From Poseidonibacter lekithochrous (GTDB lineage Bacteria; Campylobacterota; Campylobacteria; Campylobacterales; Arcobacteraceae): 64,000 nucleotides of DNA. The position numbers and the translations under genes are program-made. Of the stretch, positions 2,935 through 10,514 are shown piece after piece. The DNA lies in assembly GCF_013283835.1 (NCBI RefSeq), contig NZ_CP054052.1:1736001-1800000 (forward strand), in the 5' to 3' direction. The notes below the pieces were generated by a model. The model did not search any database and was not told where the DNA came from. It saw only the letters and a list, made by a program, of their open reading frames with translations. Each line of letters starts with the position of its first letter. Within the stretch, counting starts at the first letter, position 1.

Positions 2935-3402
2935 TTAATCTTCTTTTAACACTAAGAACTGAAACTTATATTCAGAGTCTGATGAACCAACTTTGATAAT
3001 ATCTCCATCATTTAAAACTTGTTCAATATCACTTTCACTACCACCGTATGTAATGTCATTGATTGTTGTACCAGTTTTACTACCTCTGTCTTTTAATAAA
3101 AAGAAATTGTTTGTTTTCTCTATTTGAAAGTGTTCTTTTGCAATTTGTGTATTTCTACTATTGTCAATTAGATAAATATCATTGTTTGAATTTACTTCTG
3201 ATTTTCTAAATCTAAGTTTGATAAAAAAACCTCGTTCATTTTCACCAACTCTTAGCTCTCTTCCAAGCTTAAATGGAAATTCTGCAATTTGAATAATTCC
3301 TTTTTGGCATTGTGCTACTGAGTTCGTTGCTTCTTTTGTTAGTGGTACTAGTATTGCCTCTGGAGTAAGGCTTTTGATGATGTCTCGTTTAGATTTCAAC
3401 AT
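2935..3402 (-). CDS. FHA domain protein
   Basis: This 155-residue cytoplasmic protein has a single forkhead-associated fold, a module that reads phosphothreonine on a partner. The fold spans about residues 45-152: FKLGRE at its first strand, IAKEHFQIE in the place of the usual S-x-x-H turn, LKDRGSKTGTTIND carrying the conserved Asn, and LNDGDIIKVGSS as the last strands. The Arg of GR, the His and the Asn needed for ligand binding are all present, although the Ser of SxxH is replaced by Ala. The first 40 residues are unassigned. It lies 10 bases upstream of the DUF748 gene, in an operon with it, and is divergent from dapE. The start has an AGGA site. No kinase gene is seen nearby. Confidence 0.85.
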   Translation of the reverse strand: MLKSKRDIIKSLTPEAILVPLTKEATNSVAQCQKGIIQIAEFPFKLGRELRVGENERGFFIKLRFRKSEVNSNNDIYLIDNSRNTQIAKEHFQIEKTNNFFLLKDRGSKTGTTINDITYGGSESDIEQVLNDGDIIKVGSSDSEYKFQFLVLKED

Positions 3403-4617: not shown

Positions 4618-4650
4618 AAAAGGTAAGAAATTAAATTCTTACCTTTTTTT
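4618..4650 (+). terminator. rho-independent terminator after dapE
   Basis: A perfect 12-base-pair stem (4618-4629 with 4636-4647) with a 6-base loop is followed by a T run. It begins 21 bases after the dapE stop and separates dapE from the operator-controlled ATPase operon. Confidence 0.9.
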
Positions 4651-4666
4651 AAAACTAAAAATTTCT

Positions 4667-4738
4667 AACAACAAAAAAGTTGTCAAAACTATTGACAACA
4701 AAAAAATTGTCAGATATAATAACAACAAAAAAGTTGTC
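4667..4738 (+). repeat. three inverted-repeat operators at exact 27-base spacing
   Basis: Three 18-base imperfect palindromes of the form (A/G)ACAAC-A6-(G/A)TTGTC lie at 4667-4684, 4694-4711 and 4721-4738, each starting 27 bases after the one before. The first lies upstream of the -35 box, the second overlaps the -35 box and spacer, and the third lies between the -10 box and the ribosome binding site. This arrangement is what one expects of operators for a dimeric repressor. The binding protein is not identified; both downstream ATPases carry a winged-helix-like region and are candidates for self-regulation. Confidence 0.85.
4692..4720 (+). promoter_or_regulatory. perfect sigma-70 promoter of the two-ATPase operon
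   Basis: TTGACA at 4692-4697 and TATAAT at 4715-4720 are both full consensus with a 17-base spacer. Such a promoter is unusual here, since the other promoters of the window lack a clear -35 box. It sits inside the three-operator array, so it would be strong unless repressed. Confidence 0.85.
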
Positions 4739-4750
4739 AAAGGAGAATTC

Positions 4751-5917
4751 ATGAAAAATTGTGTTGGTCAGGCAGTAAGAGGAAATGATTTCTGGGATAG
4801 AAATAGAGAAATATCAATTATCTGGAATAAAATTGATAGTGGTAGTCATATATTACTAGCTGCTCCAAGAAGGGTTGGTAAGACATCAATTATGTTTAAT
4901 TTACTTGACAATCCAAAAGATGATTATATTGTTATGTATATTGATACTGAATCAGCAGATAATGAAAATGAATTTTGGCAAAAACTTTTTAATGCTTTAC
5001 AAGAAGAAGATTTTGTAAATAAATTAAAATCATATTCAAATACATTATTTGAAAAAATAAAAAATATAAGAATTGATAAAATATCAGCATCAGGAGTTAC
5101 TTTTGGTGATGGTGAAACTTTAGATTATTCAGAAGCATTTGAAAAAATGATTAAAGATTTAGATATTGATAAAAAGCTAATTATTATGATTGATGAATTT
5201 GCTCAAACTGTAGAAAATATAATTAAATATGAAGATATACCTAGTGCTATAAAATTTATTAAAAGACATAGAGAACTAAGACAAAATCAAAAAATATCAA
5301 GAAAAGTATCATTTATTTACGCAGGTTCTATTGGATTAGAAAGTGTAGTATCAAAGTTAAATGGAATGAAACATATTAATGACCTAAATAGTATAAAAGT
5401 TAATCCTCTTAGTGTTATTGAGAGTAAGCAGTTTATTAAAGTATTAGTATCTAATCTTGAATTAAAATTAGATGATACCGTAATAAATGAGTTTCTAATA
5501 AGAGTTGAGTGGTATATACCTTTTTATATACAACTAATCATTCAAGAAATTAAAACAATAACAATCGAAGATAATGTTAATGAGGTAACATCTGAAATAC
5601 TTGATAAAGCTATTAATAATGCATTAAATCATAGAAATCATTTTGAGCACTGGAGAAGTAAATTAAAAGAAGCATTAGGTATAAATGAATTTAAATTTAC
5701 AAAAGAAATATTAAATTATATATCAGAAAATAATACAATGGAATTGCTAGATATTATTAATATTGGTGTTAAGTATGATTTGGATGATGATGAAGTAAAA
5801 GAGATTATTCATTCGCTTATTCATGATGGTTACATTAACAATAATGATAATCCAAAAGAATATAGATTTAATTCTCCTATTTTAAAAATGTGGTGGTACA
5901 AAAATGTTGCAAACTAA
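4751..5917 (+). CDS. AAA ATPase with C-terminal winged helix, first gene of a two-ATPase operon
   Basis: This 388-residue ATPase begins with the signature GQAVRGNDFWDRNREI, then Walker A APRRVGKTS (residues 38-46) and Walker B LIIMIDEF (143-150), followed by a sensor strand FIYAGSIGLESVV (188-200). The family resembles the archaeal-type ATPase_2 / STAND-like group, which act as switches in signalling or defence. Residues about 315-388 look like a winged helix (KEILNYISENN, then DLDDDEVKEIIHSLIHDGYI). The start has AGGAG six bases upstream. It overlaps the next gene by 14 bases, so the two products are probably made together. No nuclease, protease or membrane domain is seen. Codon use is more A/T-biased than in dapE. 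The biological role is unknown; a defence role is only a possibility. Confidence 0.8.
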   Translation: MKNCVGQAVRGNDFWDRNREISIIWNKIDSGSHILLAAPRRVGKTSIMFNLLDNPKDDYIVMYIDTESADNENEFWQKLFNALQEEDFVNKLKSYSNTLFEKIKNIRIDKISASGVTFGDGETLDYSEAFEKMIKDLDIDKKLIIMIDEFAQTVENIIKYEDIPSAIKFIKRHRELRQNQKISRKVSFIYAGSIGLESVVSKLNGMKHINDLNSIKVNPLSVIESKQFIKVLVSNLELKLDDTVINEFLIRVEWYIPFYIQLIIQEIKTITIEDNVNEVTSEILDKAINNALNHRNHFEHWRSKLKEALGINEFKFTKEILNYISENNTMELLDIINIGVKYDLDDDEVKEIIHSLIHDGYINNNDNPKEYRFNSPILKMWWYKNVAN

Positions 5918-7868
5918 TAATTCAAGATATAAATATACTCCAGATGAAATGCCTGAAGATGAGTTTTTAAAAAGATTTGTAGTTAGAGAAAAAGTATTTG
6001 AAGAGATATTCAAAGATATTAAAGCTTCTGATTATGAGGTGTCAAATCAGCATTTTATTATAGTAGGGCAAAGGGGTCAGGGTAAAACTACACTCTTAAG
6101 AAAAATTTTAATAGAAACAAAAAAAGATAAAAACTTATCTAAATTTTTAATTCCCGTAAAATTTGCAGAAGAACAGTATCAAATTAGGTCTTTATCAAGG
6201 TTATGGGAAGAAGTAGCTGACTATCTTCAATCTATATATGAAGATATATTTCCAAATATTTTAGATGATATGGAAGAATTCTTTGATGATGAAGATTATG
6301 AACTAAAAGCATTTTCATATTTTGAAAAACATATTAAAAAACAAAATAAAAAACTATTAATTCTTGTAGATAATATAGATGAGTTAATAGGAAAGTTTTC
6401 AGAAAAAGAGCAAAGACGATTTAGAGAGATACTTTTAACTTCTTCCTCTTTTAGAATAATCGGTGGCTCAACTAAAATGCTTGAGCAACATTATGACTAT
6501 AGTAAACCTTTCTATGAGTTTTTTAAAATAGTTAAACTTAAAGGTTTTAATTCAGAAGAAAGTAAAAAGTTTTTATTATCTTATGCAAATACAGAAGAAA
6601 AGAAAAAAATAAAAGAAGTTATAGAAAATACACCAGAGAGATTAGAAGTAATTAGACAGTTAACAGGTGGTGTTCCTCGAACTTTAGTTATGTTATTTGA
6701 TATATTCTTAGATGAAGAAGGAACTGCTTTTGATGATTTACTTAAAATTCTTGATGAAGTTACACCTTTATACAAACATAGGATGGATGATTTACCAGCG
6801 CAATTACAAGAATTAGTCCATACAATAGCAATAAATTGGGATGGTATGTACACAAAAAATATTGCTAGAAAAACTAGGATGGAAAGCAAAGCTATTTCTT
6901 CACAGCTTAAAAAGCTAGAGAAATTTGAGATAATAGAATCAGAATCTGTTGGAAAAAATAAAATATATAAAATAAAAGAGAGATTTTTTAATATTTGGTA
7001 TCTTATGCGATTTGGTAGAAAAAAAGATAGACAAAGAGTAGAATGGCTAATTGCCTTTTTAAACTCTTGGTGTAGTAAAGATGAATTGGAAAATAAAGCA
7101 ATAGATTTTATGAATAAATTAAAAATGGGAGAGATTAAAGAATCTTATGCTTTTCATATGTGTGAAGCCTTATCATATGCTGGAATTAAACTAGAAACAG
7201 AAAATGAATTAAAATGTGTAACAAATAAGTATCTTGGAAGTATTAATTCAAGTTTAAAATGCGATCTCTCAAAAAGTGATAAACAAGTATTTGAAGAAGC
7301 AAAAGTTTTTATTGATAACAAAGATTATCATACAGCAATTGAAATACTTGAAAATTCTAATAAATCAAGTGAATTTATTACTCAGTCATTATCTATACTT
7401 TATAATTTAGCAAAAGATTATAGTAAAACTGTTAAATATACTAAGCTATTTGTAAGTTATAATAATAATTATTCACCAGAAGAAGTGTCTTTTATGTCTT
7501 CACGAATATTAATAGCAACAAATAATTTTGAGTATAGTTTCAAGTTACTTATTGAGTCATTAGAACAGTATTCAAAAAATAAGGAAAATGAATATGTCAT
7601 AAATTATTTAATTAGGCAGTATTTTATTGAATTAATTTCTAGAAAACAATATTTCAAAGCCAAAGAGTTACTTGAATTAAAAGCATACAATTTAAAAGAA
7701 AAATTTAAGCCAATCTGGTTTGCTCTTATGAAACTTATGGAAGATGAATATCCTAACGAATTTAAGAAAATGGGTTCTGAATTAGAGAGTAGTGTTAATG
7801 AGGTAATAATAAAGATTGAAAAGTTAAGAAATGAAAATAATAAATTACAATCAAACTTATACAAATAA
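5904..7868 (+). CDS. second ATPase, MarR-like winged helix plus TPR-like C-terminus
   Basis: This 654-residue protein starts with MPEDEFLKRFVVREKVFEEI, then Walker A GQRGQGKTT (55-63), Walker B LLILVDNIDEL (151-161) and a sensor region RIIGGSTKML (184-193). A winged helix lies at about 305-365 (KNIARKTRMESKAISSQLKK, then EIIESES). From about 400 to 640 paired helices look like tetratricopeptide repeats, and the last 25 residues form a short coiled coil. This STAND-like layout (sensor repeats, NTPase, DNA-binding-like helix) suits a switch that responds to a ligand or partner. It overlaps the preceding ATPase gene by 14 bases and the GNAT gene by 38 bases. The start has no good ribosome site, so translation is probably coupled. 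The function is not known. Confidence 0.8.
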   Translation: MLQTNNSRYKYTPDEMPEDEFLKRFVVREKVFEEIFKDIKASDYEVSNQHFIIVGQRGQGKTTLLRKILIETKKDKNLSKFLIPVKFAEEQYQIRSLSRLWEEVADYLQSIYEDIFPNILDDMEEFFDDEDYELKAFSYFEKHIKKQNKKLLILVDNIDELIGKFSEKEQRRFREILLTSSSFRIIGGSTKMLEQHYDYSKPFYEFFKIVKLKGFNSEESKKFLLSYANTEEKKKIKEVIENTPERLEVIRQLTGGVPRTLVMLFDIFLDEEGTAFDDLLKILDEVTPLYKHRMDDLPAQLQELVHTIAINWDGMYTKNIARKTRMESKAISSQLKKLEKFEIIESESVGKNKIYKIKERFFNIWYLMRFGRKKDRQRVEWLIAFLNSWCSKDELENKAIDFMNKLKMGEIKESYAFHMCEALSYAGIKLETENELKCVTNKYLGSINSSLKCDLSKSDKQVFEEAKVFIDNKDYHTAIEILENSNKSSEFITQSLSILYNLAKDYSKTVKYTKLFVSYNNNYSPEEVSFMSSRILIATNNFEYSFKLLIESLEQYSKNKENEYVINYLIRQYFIELISRKQYFKAKELLELKAYNLKEKFKPIWFALMKLMEDEYPNEFKKMGSELESSVNEVIIKIEKLRNENNKLQSNLYK

Positions 7869-8790: not shown

Positions 8791-9885
8791 ATGAAAATAT
8801 CAAAGTTGTATGCAAACAATGATGATTTTAAAACCATAGTATTTGATAAAGGTATAAATTTTATCTTAGCTGACAACAATGGTGTAGGAAAAAGTAGTCT
8901 TTTTAAATTAATAGATTTTTGTTTATTAGGTGACAAACACTTTTTAGGTCAAGAATACTTCAAAGATTATATATTTTATATAGAATTACAAATAGCTTCA
9001 AATAGATATATGACGATTAAAAGACCTACAAAAAGTGGTAAAAATATAGAGTTAAAAATCACAAAAGGTAAATCATATCTTACAGATGAAAAAGATTTTA
9101 ATAAAAAAGGTAGTTTAGGTATTGCTAAATCTTTTTTTGAAAATAAAGTTAATTATTCTATAAATAAATTCAGAACATATATAACTTATTTTTTAAGAGA
9201 TGAATCTAACCAAAGTGATGCATTTATATTAAACAAACACGCGTCAACACATGCAATAGAGTACAAAACACTTGTATCAAATCTAGTAGGTATTGACGGA
9301 CGAAAAATAAGAAAAAAATATGAATTAGATGAGATAATAAAAAAAGAAGATATAGACGAAAATACTTTAAAAACTGCTCAAGATGATTTATCGAAAGTTA
9401 TTGAAGAGAACAAAATATTAATAAACAGTCGTTTAATAGATAGATTGAAAGATTGTGTCTCAAAATATGGAAATATAATATTAAATAAAGAAGTGATTTT
9501 TTCAATTGATTTCAATACTTCAAATGATATAGAATTTAGTATCAAAATAGAAAAAGATGAAGAATCTAGTGATAAATTGAATGATGATGTCACTATAAAA
9601 AAACTACTATGTTTAATCTTCTCATCGGCATTAGCTGAAATATATGCACAAAAAAGATTTATCAAGTTTGTTGCTTTTGATAGTCCTTTTGATGGAGAAA
9701 ACAATACTTATGAAAATGGCATTTATACTGCTATATATGAGTTACATAGAAAAGGTATTCAGACTATTATCACATCAAATGAAGATGTTATAAAAAATAA
9801 AGAAAATTTATTAGAAATAAAAGATGAATATATGATTGGATATTTAAGTAACGAAGATAAATTAATGGGTGAGTTTAAAATATGA
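8791..9885 (+). CDS. compact SMC/DUF2326-like ATPase
   Basis: The 364-residue protein has the ends of an SMC/Rad50-type ATPase: FILADNNGVGKSSL (Walker A, K34) at 25-38 and KFVAFDSPFDGEN (Walker B) at about 288-300, followed by GIQTIITSNED. The pattern of a nearby DFCLLG and an LRDESNQSDAF block resembles DUF2326 ATPases, which are normally longer because of a coiled-coil arm; here only a short helical part (about 170-215) joins the two halves. DUF2326 ATPases occur in multi-gene conflict systems, so a DNA-related role is plausible but unproven. It has GGAAG before the ATG and a 4-base ATGA overlap with the next gene, showing tight coupling to the 210-residue partner. Confidence 0.7.
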   Translation: MKISKLYANNDDFKTIVFDKGINFILADNNGVGKSSLFKLIDFCLLGDKHFLGQEYFKDYIFYIELQIASNRYMTIKRPTKSGKNIELKITKGKSYLTDEKDFNKKGSLGIAKSFFENKVNYSINKFRTYITYFLRDESNQSDAFILNKHASTHAIEYKTLVSNLVGIDGRKIRKKYELDEIIKKEDIDENTLKTAQDDLSKVIEENKILINSRLIDRLKDCVSKYGNIILNKEVIFSIDFNTSNDIEFSIKIEKDEESSDKLNDDVTIKKLLCLIFSSALAEIYAQKRFIKFVAFDSPFDGENNTYENGIYTAIYELHRKGIQTIITSNEDVIKNKENLLEIKDEYMIGYLSNEDKLMGEFKI

Positions 9886-10514
9886 ATATAGAAAAACTAA
9901 AAGACTATGAAGCAGAATTTTTATCTCAATACCCAGAAGGTTTTGATGATAAAAACTTCTTTGCTACTATGAAAAGCTTCAATCCTTTGAAATTAGAAGC
10001 ATTTGCAAAAGAGGCTTTAAAAAAAGAGAATTTCCAAAACCCAAGTCTTGTTGTTGAGGGTTTTTTCAAAGTGGTTCAAAAGTCAGTATTTGTATCACTA
10101 TTTGATAAGCTAAAATTAAAAGACATGATTGCCACACTTAATTCTTATGAAAAAGATATGTTAAGTATAGAGCTTTACGAGCTTTTATATGGAAATAAAA
10201 AGAATGGTTTTGAAGGACTAGTAGAATTTCTAGCAGAATATAAACTAGCAAAATGGACGATAATATCTGTAGTTCCTTATACTATTAATAGAGATGGTGA
10301 TTATTTTATCAAGCCTACTACTACGAAAAATATTATCAAAAATTTTGATTTAGAAGATTTGATATACAAACCAAGACCTAGTTATGAGTTTTATAACAAA
10401 TACTCAAAAGCATTAAATAAGATGAAAAAAAGTGTTCATAAATCACTAAGCCCAGACAATGTAGGATTTACAGCCTTTCTAAAAGTAGCTATGGATTCTT
10501 ACGAAGAAAACTAA
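9882..10514 (+). CDS. unknown protein coupled to the SMC-like ATPase
   Basis: I do not recognise this 210-residue protein. It is predicted soluble and largely helical, with no signal peptide or membrane segment. The N-terminal part (YEAEFLSQYPEGFDDKNFF, then KSFNPLKLEAFAKEAL) and a central LEFLAEYKLAKWTIISVVPY-like core look well ordered and suggest a conserved family. It overlaps the ATPase gene by ATGA (9882-9885), so the two are probably translated as a unit and may form a complex. The AraC-type gene begins 10 bases downstream. No catalytic motif is evident. Confidence 0.7.
   Translation: MNIEKLKDYEAEFLSQYPEGFDDKNFFATMKSFNPLKLEAFAKEALKKENFQNPSLVVEGFFKVVQKSVFVSLFDKLKLKDMIATLNSYEKDMLSIELYELLYGNKKNGFEGLVEFLAEYKLAKWTIISVVPYTINRDGDYFIKPTTTKNIIKNFDLEDLIYKPRPSYEFYNKYSKALNKMKKSVHKSLSPDNVGFTAFLKVAMDSYEEN

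Follow-up and report, generated by a model that had tools for sequence, protein, structure and literature searches.

What kind of system keeps two NLR-like ATPase genes behind a perfect consensus promoter that is itself buried in operators? The question is raised by a gene pair, here called A and B, in a stretch of 64,000 nt from Poseidonibacter lekithochrous (NZ_CP054052.1, positions 1,736,001-1,800,000; hereafter the window, in whose coordinates all positions are given). We propose that A and B form a self-contained, horizontally mobile, self-repressing two-protein conflict receptor of the STAND (NLR-like) class, most likely directed against phages, and we would put the probability of this reading at roughly 55%. 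Its computed basis is that both proteins have NLR-type cores, that the helical-repeat arm of B is exchanged in its middle between otherwise near-identical copies, that the gene order, a 14-nt overlap of the genes and an operator array of 27-bp period persist in many phyla, and that the array, in those carrier genomes that show its pattern, stands at the pair. The role in defence against phages is probable. The features of the locus are as follows.

4618-4647, no strand: inverted repeat and T-run between dapE and the pair, putative dapE terminator
4666-4685, no strand: operator 1, palindrome TRACAA-N8-TTGTCA
4692-4720, + strand: promoter TTGACA-N17-TATAAT (TTGACA 4692-4697, 17-bp spacer, TATAAT 4715-4720)
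4693-4712, no strand: operator 2, overlapping the -35 hexamer
4720-4739, no strand: operator 3, from the last -10 base over the expected transcription start
4740-4745, + strand: Shine-Dalgarno sequence AAGGAG
4751-5917, + strand: gene A, 388 aa, bare NOD-like ATPase with P-loop PRRVGKTS, no effector or sensor arm recognised
5904-5917, + strand: 14-nt overlap of the A stop and the B start
5904-7868, + strand: gene B, 654 aa, STAND/NACHT-like ATPase with winged helix and helical-repeat arm
6810-6980, + strand: ArsR/MarR-like winged helix, B residues 303-359, likely operator reader (TIGR01884, 6.8e-6; HTH_metalloreg, 1.8e-5 for residues 315-359; both far below the curated cut-offs)
7101-7610, + strand: hypervariable helical-repeat region, B residues about 400-569, probable sensor
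7611-7838, + strand: conserved C-terminal tail, B residues about 570-645

A consensus promoter threaded through tandem operators

The preliminary description of this locus had reported a 14-base overlap and a consensus promoter under triple operators, and both reports hold: the overlap lies at 5904-5917, and the promoter is a perfect consensus threaded through three 20-bp palindromes at exactly 27-bp spacing. Operator 2 overlies the -35 box and operator 3 begins on the last base of the -10 box, so RNA polymerase should be shut out when protein is bound. Upstream, the inverted repeat probably terminates dapE transcription and isolates the pair.

How specific is this arrangement? Allowing up to three mismatches, the operator pattern occurs three times in the window, each time at the A-B promoter, where 0.27 occurrences are expected, and none of 100 shuffles reached three matches. 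A lone strict palindrome is not rare in the whole genome: it is found at four places in 3.57 Mb, three of them at the A-B promoter, against 6 and 8 for reversed-pattern controls. The pattern of two palindromes spaced by 27 bp, without mismatch, has the A-B promoter as its sole occurrence in the genome; with up to two mismatches one further place appears (controls, 2 and 2). The idea of several A-B copies in this genome was also rejected.

Domains and predicted structures of A and B

Both proteins match P-loop NTPases in a profile scan and belong with the STAND/NACHT-type P-loop NTPases. B matches NACHT (E 1.4e-9, 38.4 bits over a cut-off of 26.7) and nSTAND1 (28.1 bits over 27.1), while the sole match of A above its cut-off is to the generic AAA_22 (29.1 over 27). 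The AlphaFold models have a predicted local distance difference test score (pLDDT) of 90.6 for A and 86.5 for B, and the best structural matches of both are the archaeal ATPases 2qen and 2fna, followed by CED-4, plant resistosomes and Orc/Cdc6. Specifically, A aligns to 2qen with Z 27.1 over 330 residues (root-mean-square deviation (rmsd) 3.4) and to 2fna with Z 25.5 over 324 residues (rmsd 3.8); residues 6-368 of B reach Z 20.1 and 19.6 to the same two. Matches to NLR-type folds come next, with Z 19.7 (G10 resistosome) and 18.5 (CED-4) for A and Z 19.2 and 19.4 for B; the B model also matches EfAvs5 with Z 13.0 at rmsd 11.2. In the models, the CED-4 and resistosome matches span residues 8-388 of A and 14-380 of B, so that both proteins carry the nucleotide-binding, helical and winged-helix modules in the order typical of NLRs, and B ends in helical repeats. 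The preliminary description had proposed two STAND-like ATPases of unlike size, winged-helix-like parts in both and a TPR-like sensor region in one. All three proposals agree with these matches (388 and 654 aa; winged-helix part within the NLR-type cores; repeats at the end of the B model).

The families found in the homologues are consistent with this picture. Of 48 B proteins, 37 match NACHT and 8 a MarR model. No effector family was found among the 10 Pfam families matched by 52 A homologues (E 0.001; one of the ten is a single weak Csx12 match), nor among the best 25 of the 41 Pfam families matched by 48 B homologues at the same threshold. The P-loop starts at about residue 39 of A and residue 55 of B, and in neither protein was an N-terminal effector like that of the bNACHT and Avs proteins recognised. 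A profile of the 48 B homologues returned no result against Protein Data Bank sequences. The pair also falls outside two other classes. It is not a type II toxin-antitoxin system, which consists of a small toxin and a small DNA-binding antitoxin, A and B being STAND proteins of 388 and 654 aa. Nor does it belong to MADS: mad8 is matched at E 7.6e-5 by A and 1.4e-3 by B, and among other mad genes the scanned neighbours at 8791-9885 and 9882-10514 gave only a weak mad3 match (7.6e-5).

The pair and its array in other bacteria

A search of genome contigs with an alignment of B N-termini yielded 146 relatives, the best 80 of which were analysed. According to the sequence records they come from Campylobacterota, Gammaproteobacteria, Desulfobacteraceae, Bacteroidota, Clostridium, KSB1, Cloacimonadota, Fusobacteriaceae and others. 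(Below, L numbers denote loci and G numbers genomes, G000 being that of the window.) Gene A was found upstream at 74 loci, and at 46 of these the exact 14-nt overlap is present together with an in-frame start codon (L107, the same locus as L022, and L024, a broken pair in G012, are left out of this count). Only at L053, L092 and L101 among the 80 loci is A absent within about 1.7 kb despite available sequence; at L055 and L087 B begins at the contig end. The N-terminal identities of A and B rise together, with a Spearman coefficient of 0.77 over 1711 pairs, not independent of one another, from 59 loci.

The operator array accompanies the pair. The weights of the motif were derived from the same loci, and the only test free of this assumption asks simply for two palindromes at a given distance: they lie 27 apart in 35 of 68 upstream regions, 26 apart in two and 28 apart in one, and shuffled sequences gave a mean of 0.13 at spacing 27, with a maximum of 1 in 30 rounds. 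When the motif TRACAA-N8-TTGTYA is used, at least two sites are present in 52 of 67 upstream regions and a pair spaced by 27 in 48, and 63 of 74 adjacent spacings are exactly 27. L107 is excluded from these motif spacing counts and included in the motif-free one, upstream regions of partial A genes are not counted, and at L048, L057, L067, L079, L084 and L095 the sites were found once start codons or flank limits had been corrected. The two half-sites tend to change together, in counts that are inflated by related sequences: they agree at position 5 in 126 of 133 cases (102.6 expected), at position 7 in 97 (52.8 expected) and at position 3 in 110 (101.6 expected).

We can also ask where the array stands within whole genomes. 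Among 30 genomes chosen because they carry the pair, 18 contain the strict double pattern, with every occurrence at the pair's promoter as placed from contig ranges and gene positions; 14 of the 18 lie outside Campylobacterota according to their sequence records, and the reversed control gave 0 in all 30. A search of 397 Campylobacterota genomes found the strict pattern in nine (control, 0), and in five of these it stands at the pair (G000, G011, G372, G267 and G377).

In the other four the array stands at different genes. It precedes TPR membrane proteins in G014 and G367, and in G388 it is found immediately beyond a Bro-N gene. A C-terminal tail like that of B is present in the array-linked TPR protein of G014 and absent from that of G367; that the protein at L025 shares this tail suggests that promoter and sensor modules are exchanged between unlike proteins. 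Matches to A or B in G014, G416 and G388 are weak or partial, the best being 1.5e-17 for A in G014. Either recombination brought these promoters to their present genes, or a further protein reads the array as well. Two observations may be recorded alongside. Array-linked coiled-coil TPR proteins, membrane-bound as judged by eye, are encoded at L025:9255-10871 (- strand) and L125:4796-5875 (+ strand). In G416 the array precedes both a KAP NTPase (L126:5002-6588) and higBA (L127:5587-5970).

Exchange of the B arm and horizontal transfer

The arm of B is exchanged between copies that are otherwise alike. In G011, a member of another genus, the N-terminus of B is 95% identical to that of the window, the middle 22% and the tail 69%. 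A conserved N-terminus with an exchanged middle recurs in L031/L033, L058/L062, L062/L066 and L028/L029. Among the 17 locus pairs with an N-terminal identity of at least 0.90, pairs above 0.995 being excluded, seven have a middle identity of 0.30 or less and two (L015/L016 and L089/L096) exceed 0.9; some B proteins in this comparison are shortened or cut by contig ends (L037, L074).

Among 59 other genomes of the kin, B has matches in five: full-length in G011 and G043, broken in G012, tail only in G014, and a weak P-loop match in G005. In G011 the pair occupies the same site as in the window. Of the four-fold degenerate sites, the two genomes agree at 85 of 90 in A, at 69 of 95 in the N-terminal part of B and, for dapE, at 87 of 135; in the flanking genes they agree at 20 of 43, 19 of 31, 41 of 67 and 45 of 103. 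The window's dapE is 94% identical to that of G011 and 81-85% identical to those of eight of the nine genomes of its own genus, the ninth giving a weak match only. That the four-fold identity of A is far above that of its flanks, and that dapE is closer to G011, points to a recent transfer of the A region. The claim that the codons of the pair are AT-rich is weakly true: GC content is 24.3% in A and 25.6% in B against 34.9% in dapE, but the whole window has 27.0%.

The site after dapE and the neighbouring genes

Among genomes of the family dapE is conserved and the genes that follow it are variable. The pair follows dapE at two of the 17 family loci examined, each of which was examined over 0.7-1.5 kb after dapE. 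What takes its place elsewhere was surveyed in ten other family genomes with dapE at least 81% identical, the genes of G017 and G005 lying outside the scan. The genes following dapE there include those for an ORF6N protein in G016 (PDC-S05, E 2.5e-68), a nucleotidyltransferase and a KAP NTPase in G007 (PDC-S09 and PDC-S49), HipA in G003, a HipB-like HTH gene in G001, an OLD/GajA-like nuclease in G004 and a protein with a weak PDC-M62A match in G002; neither SatD in G006 nor the histidine phosphatase in G008 is of defence or toxin-antitoxin type. Ten proteins were scanned, including a GGDEF protein from G012, which is more distant, and on this basis the position after dapE (L167-L176) seems to be a hotspot at which defence and toxin-antitoxin genes integrate in this family.

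The preliminary description had set the pair between a housekeeping dapE and a GNAT gene. The pair is accessory, not housekeeping, and GNAT is no fixed partner. G001 shows that the dapE-GNAT order exists without A and B: 574 nt downstream of its dapE stands the N-terminal part (67 residues, 67% identical) of a GNAT homologue, and the pair is absent. We rejected GNAT and dapE as functional partners, since the neighbours differ and G011 has an extra open reading frame (ORF) between B and GNAT. A pair fixed at one site in all strains, with a housekeeping role for both genes, was the outcome named in advance as fatal to the idea of a defence or stress switch; it is not what we found.

Close kin and common transporter and helicase families aside, no gene family was found repeatedly next to the pair. 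A fixed third gene was likewise rejected: the large co-directional ORFs downstream in L038, L055 and L071 match UvrD/AddA-type helicases and SMC, and that in L103 gave no match. On three Moraxella osloensis plasmids defence genes follow B, namely PRTase-CE, ORC-CDC6-like, CARF-type and methylase genes on two of them; the gene on the third has an N-terminus resembling that of Avs4. On Moraxella plasmid p4 (L015:6951-8987) an IS5-family transposase gene interrupts A, and B and the downstream defence genes remain.

Two further observations concern the surroundings in the window. A 364-aa ATPase (best PADLOC matches PDC-M68B, 1.3e-17, and LmuB, 4.1e-13) overlaps by 4 nt a 210-aa gene with weak Cas2-like matches, and together these genes (8791-10514) are possibly a second conflict pair; G005 has a 70% identical homologue of the ATPase (8791-9885) shortly after dapE. 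Divergent from dapE lies a gene (2935-3402) that is FHA-like by eye and has homologues beside dapE in several relatives.

Relation to known systems

The archaeal STAND-type ATPases SSO1545 (2fna) and PABY2304 (2qen) share the fold of all of A and of residues 6-368 of B. They are single solved chains with 15-18% identity, whereas A and B are paired, governed by an operator array and extended in B by a long repeat arm. The NLR and apoptosome proteins (CED-4, Apaf-1, plant resistosomes) and the bacterial NACHT and Avs proteins share the NLR-type core and a repeat arm like that of B. Unlike them, the A-B system has no recognised N-terminal effector, and it has two cores per operon and an ArsR-like winged helix with its own operator.

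Three other systems resemble the pair in part. IniR, which regulates an envelope-stress operon, is built of an ATPase like SSO1545, an arm like that of MalT and a DNA-binding domain (PMC5760070). B resembles the IniR and MalT regulators in its SSO1545-like ATPase, its repeat arm and its likely DNA-binding domain; but the DNA-binding domain of IniR is C-terminal and LuxR-like (PMC5760070), whereas in B it comes after the ATPase, and no target other than the pair itself was seen. LypABC, a CARD-NLR-like lysis system, is toxic when overproduced and its promoter is tightly repressed, by CdxB (PMC13236601). The tight repression, an Orc1-like AAA+ ATPase and TPR-like repeats liken it to A-B; it differs in having three genes, peptidase domains and a separate repressor (PMC13236601), where A and B show no peptidase and the repressor is probably B. 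In the plant NLR Rx1 the NB-ARC core binds DNA (PMC4599002), namely nuclear DNA after activation rather than, as would be the case here, specific operators at its own promoter (PMC4599002). Among the matches listed from the open-access literature, we recognised no description of the A-B pair.

A proposed self-repressing receptor and its alternatives

Which of the two proteins reads the array? An exact site lies 55 nt before B at L101 and a one-mismatch site at L053, both loci where A was not found, and sites are kept at L043, L037 and L099, where A is internally deleted or reduced. Because sites are kept at loci with B only, and because B has the ArsR/MarR-like winged helix, B is the likelier repressor, and judging from the sequences we think that it reads the array at its own promoter. 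At rest a row of B dimers, perhaps with A, would then occupy the array by way of the winged helix and would block RNA polymerase, because the sites cover the -35 box, the edge of the -10 box and the start. A phage or stress ligand bound by the arm of B could trigger exchange of ADP for ATP and assembly; ligand binding would also take B off the operators and let the strong promoter fire; and the released A-B assembly might then act by arresting growth or blocking the phage. The promoter might point to a harmful product. As the final output we favour growth arrest by the assembled ATPases themselves, given that nuclease, TIR and protease domains were not recognised. Going further, we tentatively raise the possibility that this is a novel type of prokaryotic NLR system, with B as the sensor NLR and A as a bare partner NLR in the same operon, in which the receptor would be its own repressor, held on a 27-bp-periodic operator as a multi-dimer assembly, so that sensing would be coupled to release from DNA and to amplification, with immunity arising without a dedicated effector domain.

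Several results weigh against this proposal. Neither A nor B has a recognised effector domain, and the PADLOC matches of the two proteins themselves are weak. PADLOC families are no commoner near the pair (41 families, 148 proteins) than at least 5.5 kb away (49 families, 150 proteins); this comparison covers 148 of the 245 proteins near the pair and 150 of the 201 far from it, counts families with a match at 1e-15 rather than proteins, with 25 of the 41 and 25 of the 49 families listed, and the far genes may share islands with the pair. The defence switch of the preliminary description gains from the sensor exchange, the horizontal transfer and the variable dapE site, and loses by the missing effector and the absence of defence enrichment near relatives. 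The pair was not found in the viral contigs (searched with B and with an alignment) or the phage records searched, and scans of genome and viral contigs with B as a single protein gave no result. Covariation between residues and operator, a signal dominated by kinship, singled out neither A nor B as the reader. The strict pattern was not seen in 12 of the 30 carrier genomes, four of the nine array-bearing Campylobacterota genomes (G014, G367, G416 and G388) have it at other accessory genes, and G367 bears it yet has neither A nor B. Self-regulation does not explain arrays at other genes.

These off-pair arrays are what a host regulator would produce if it read the array as a shared switch for several accessory genes, TPR, KAP and higBA genes among them, with A and B not regulating themselves. 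Such a regulator would need native targets, however, and in the 18 patterned carrier genomes, albeit chosen as carriers and with 14 outside Campylobacterota, the array stands only at the pair; arrays also track the pair across many phyla in clade-specific, symmetric variants, and we regard a host-read switch as improbable. We find it somewhat less improbable, though still unlikely, that A and B are a transcription switch in the manner of MalT or IniR, the arm of B sensing a signal of the cell and B controlling transcription with A as its partner, and no immunity involved. The winged helix and operators of B fit such a switch, as does the combination of ATPase, arm and DNA-binding domain in IniR (PMC5760070). 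What tells against it is that no regulon is seen, the strict array being seen only at the pair in the window genome and in the 18 patterned carrier genomes, that no neighbour gene is conserved, and that wholesale replacement of the sensor between near-identical copies is unusual for a fixed ligand.

The remaining alternative takes the pair for an addiction or selfish element, an overlapping, toxin-antitoxin-like module autorepressed by tandem operators and maintained for its own sake. Overlap, tandem operators, mobility and carriage on plasmids are all as expected of such an element, but A and B are each large STAND ATPases, B is kept at loci where A is lacking or internally deleted, and a plain addiction module would have no obvious use for a variable sensor arm; this is, by a little, the least probable of the explanations. 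The self-repressing conflict receptor is the reading that we prefer.

Implications

If it is correct, an NLR-like receptor can be its own repressor, which would be a simple way to hold a dangerous receptor silent yet ready. The 27-bp array would then be a searchable signature by which the system can be found without protein annotation, and the naturally swapped sensor arms of B would provide matched sets of receptors for discovering what triggers them.

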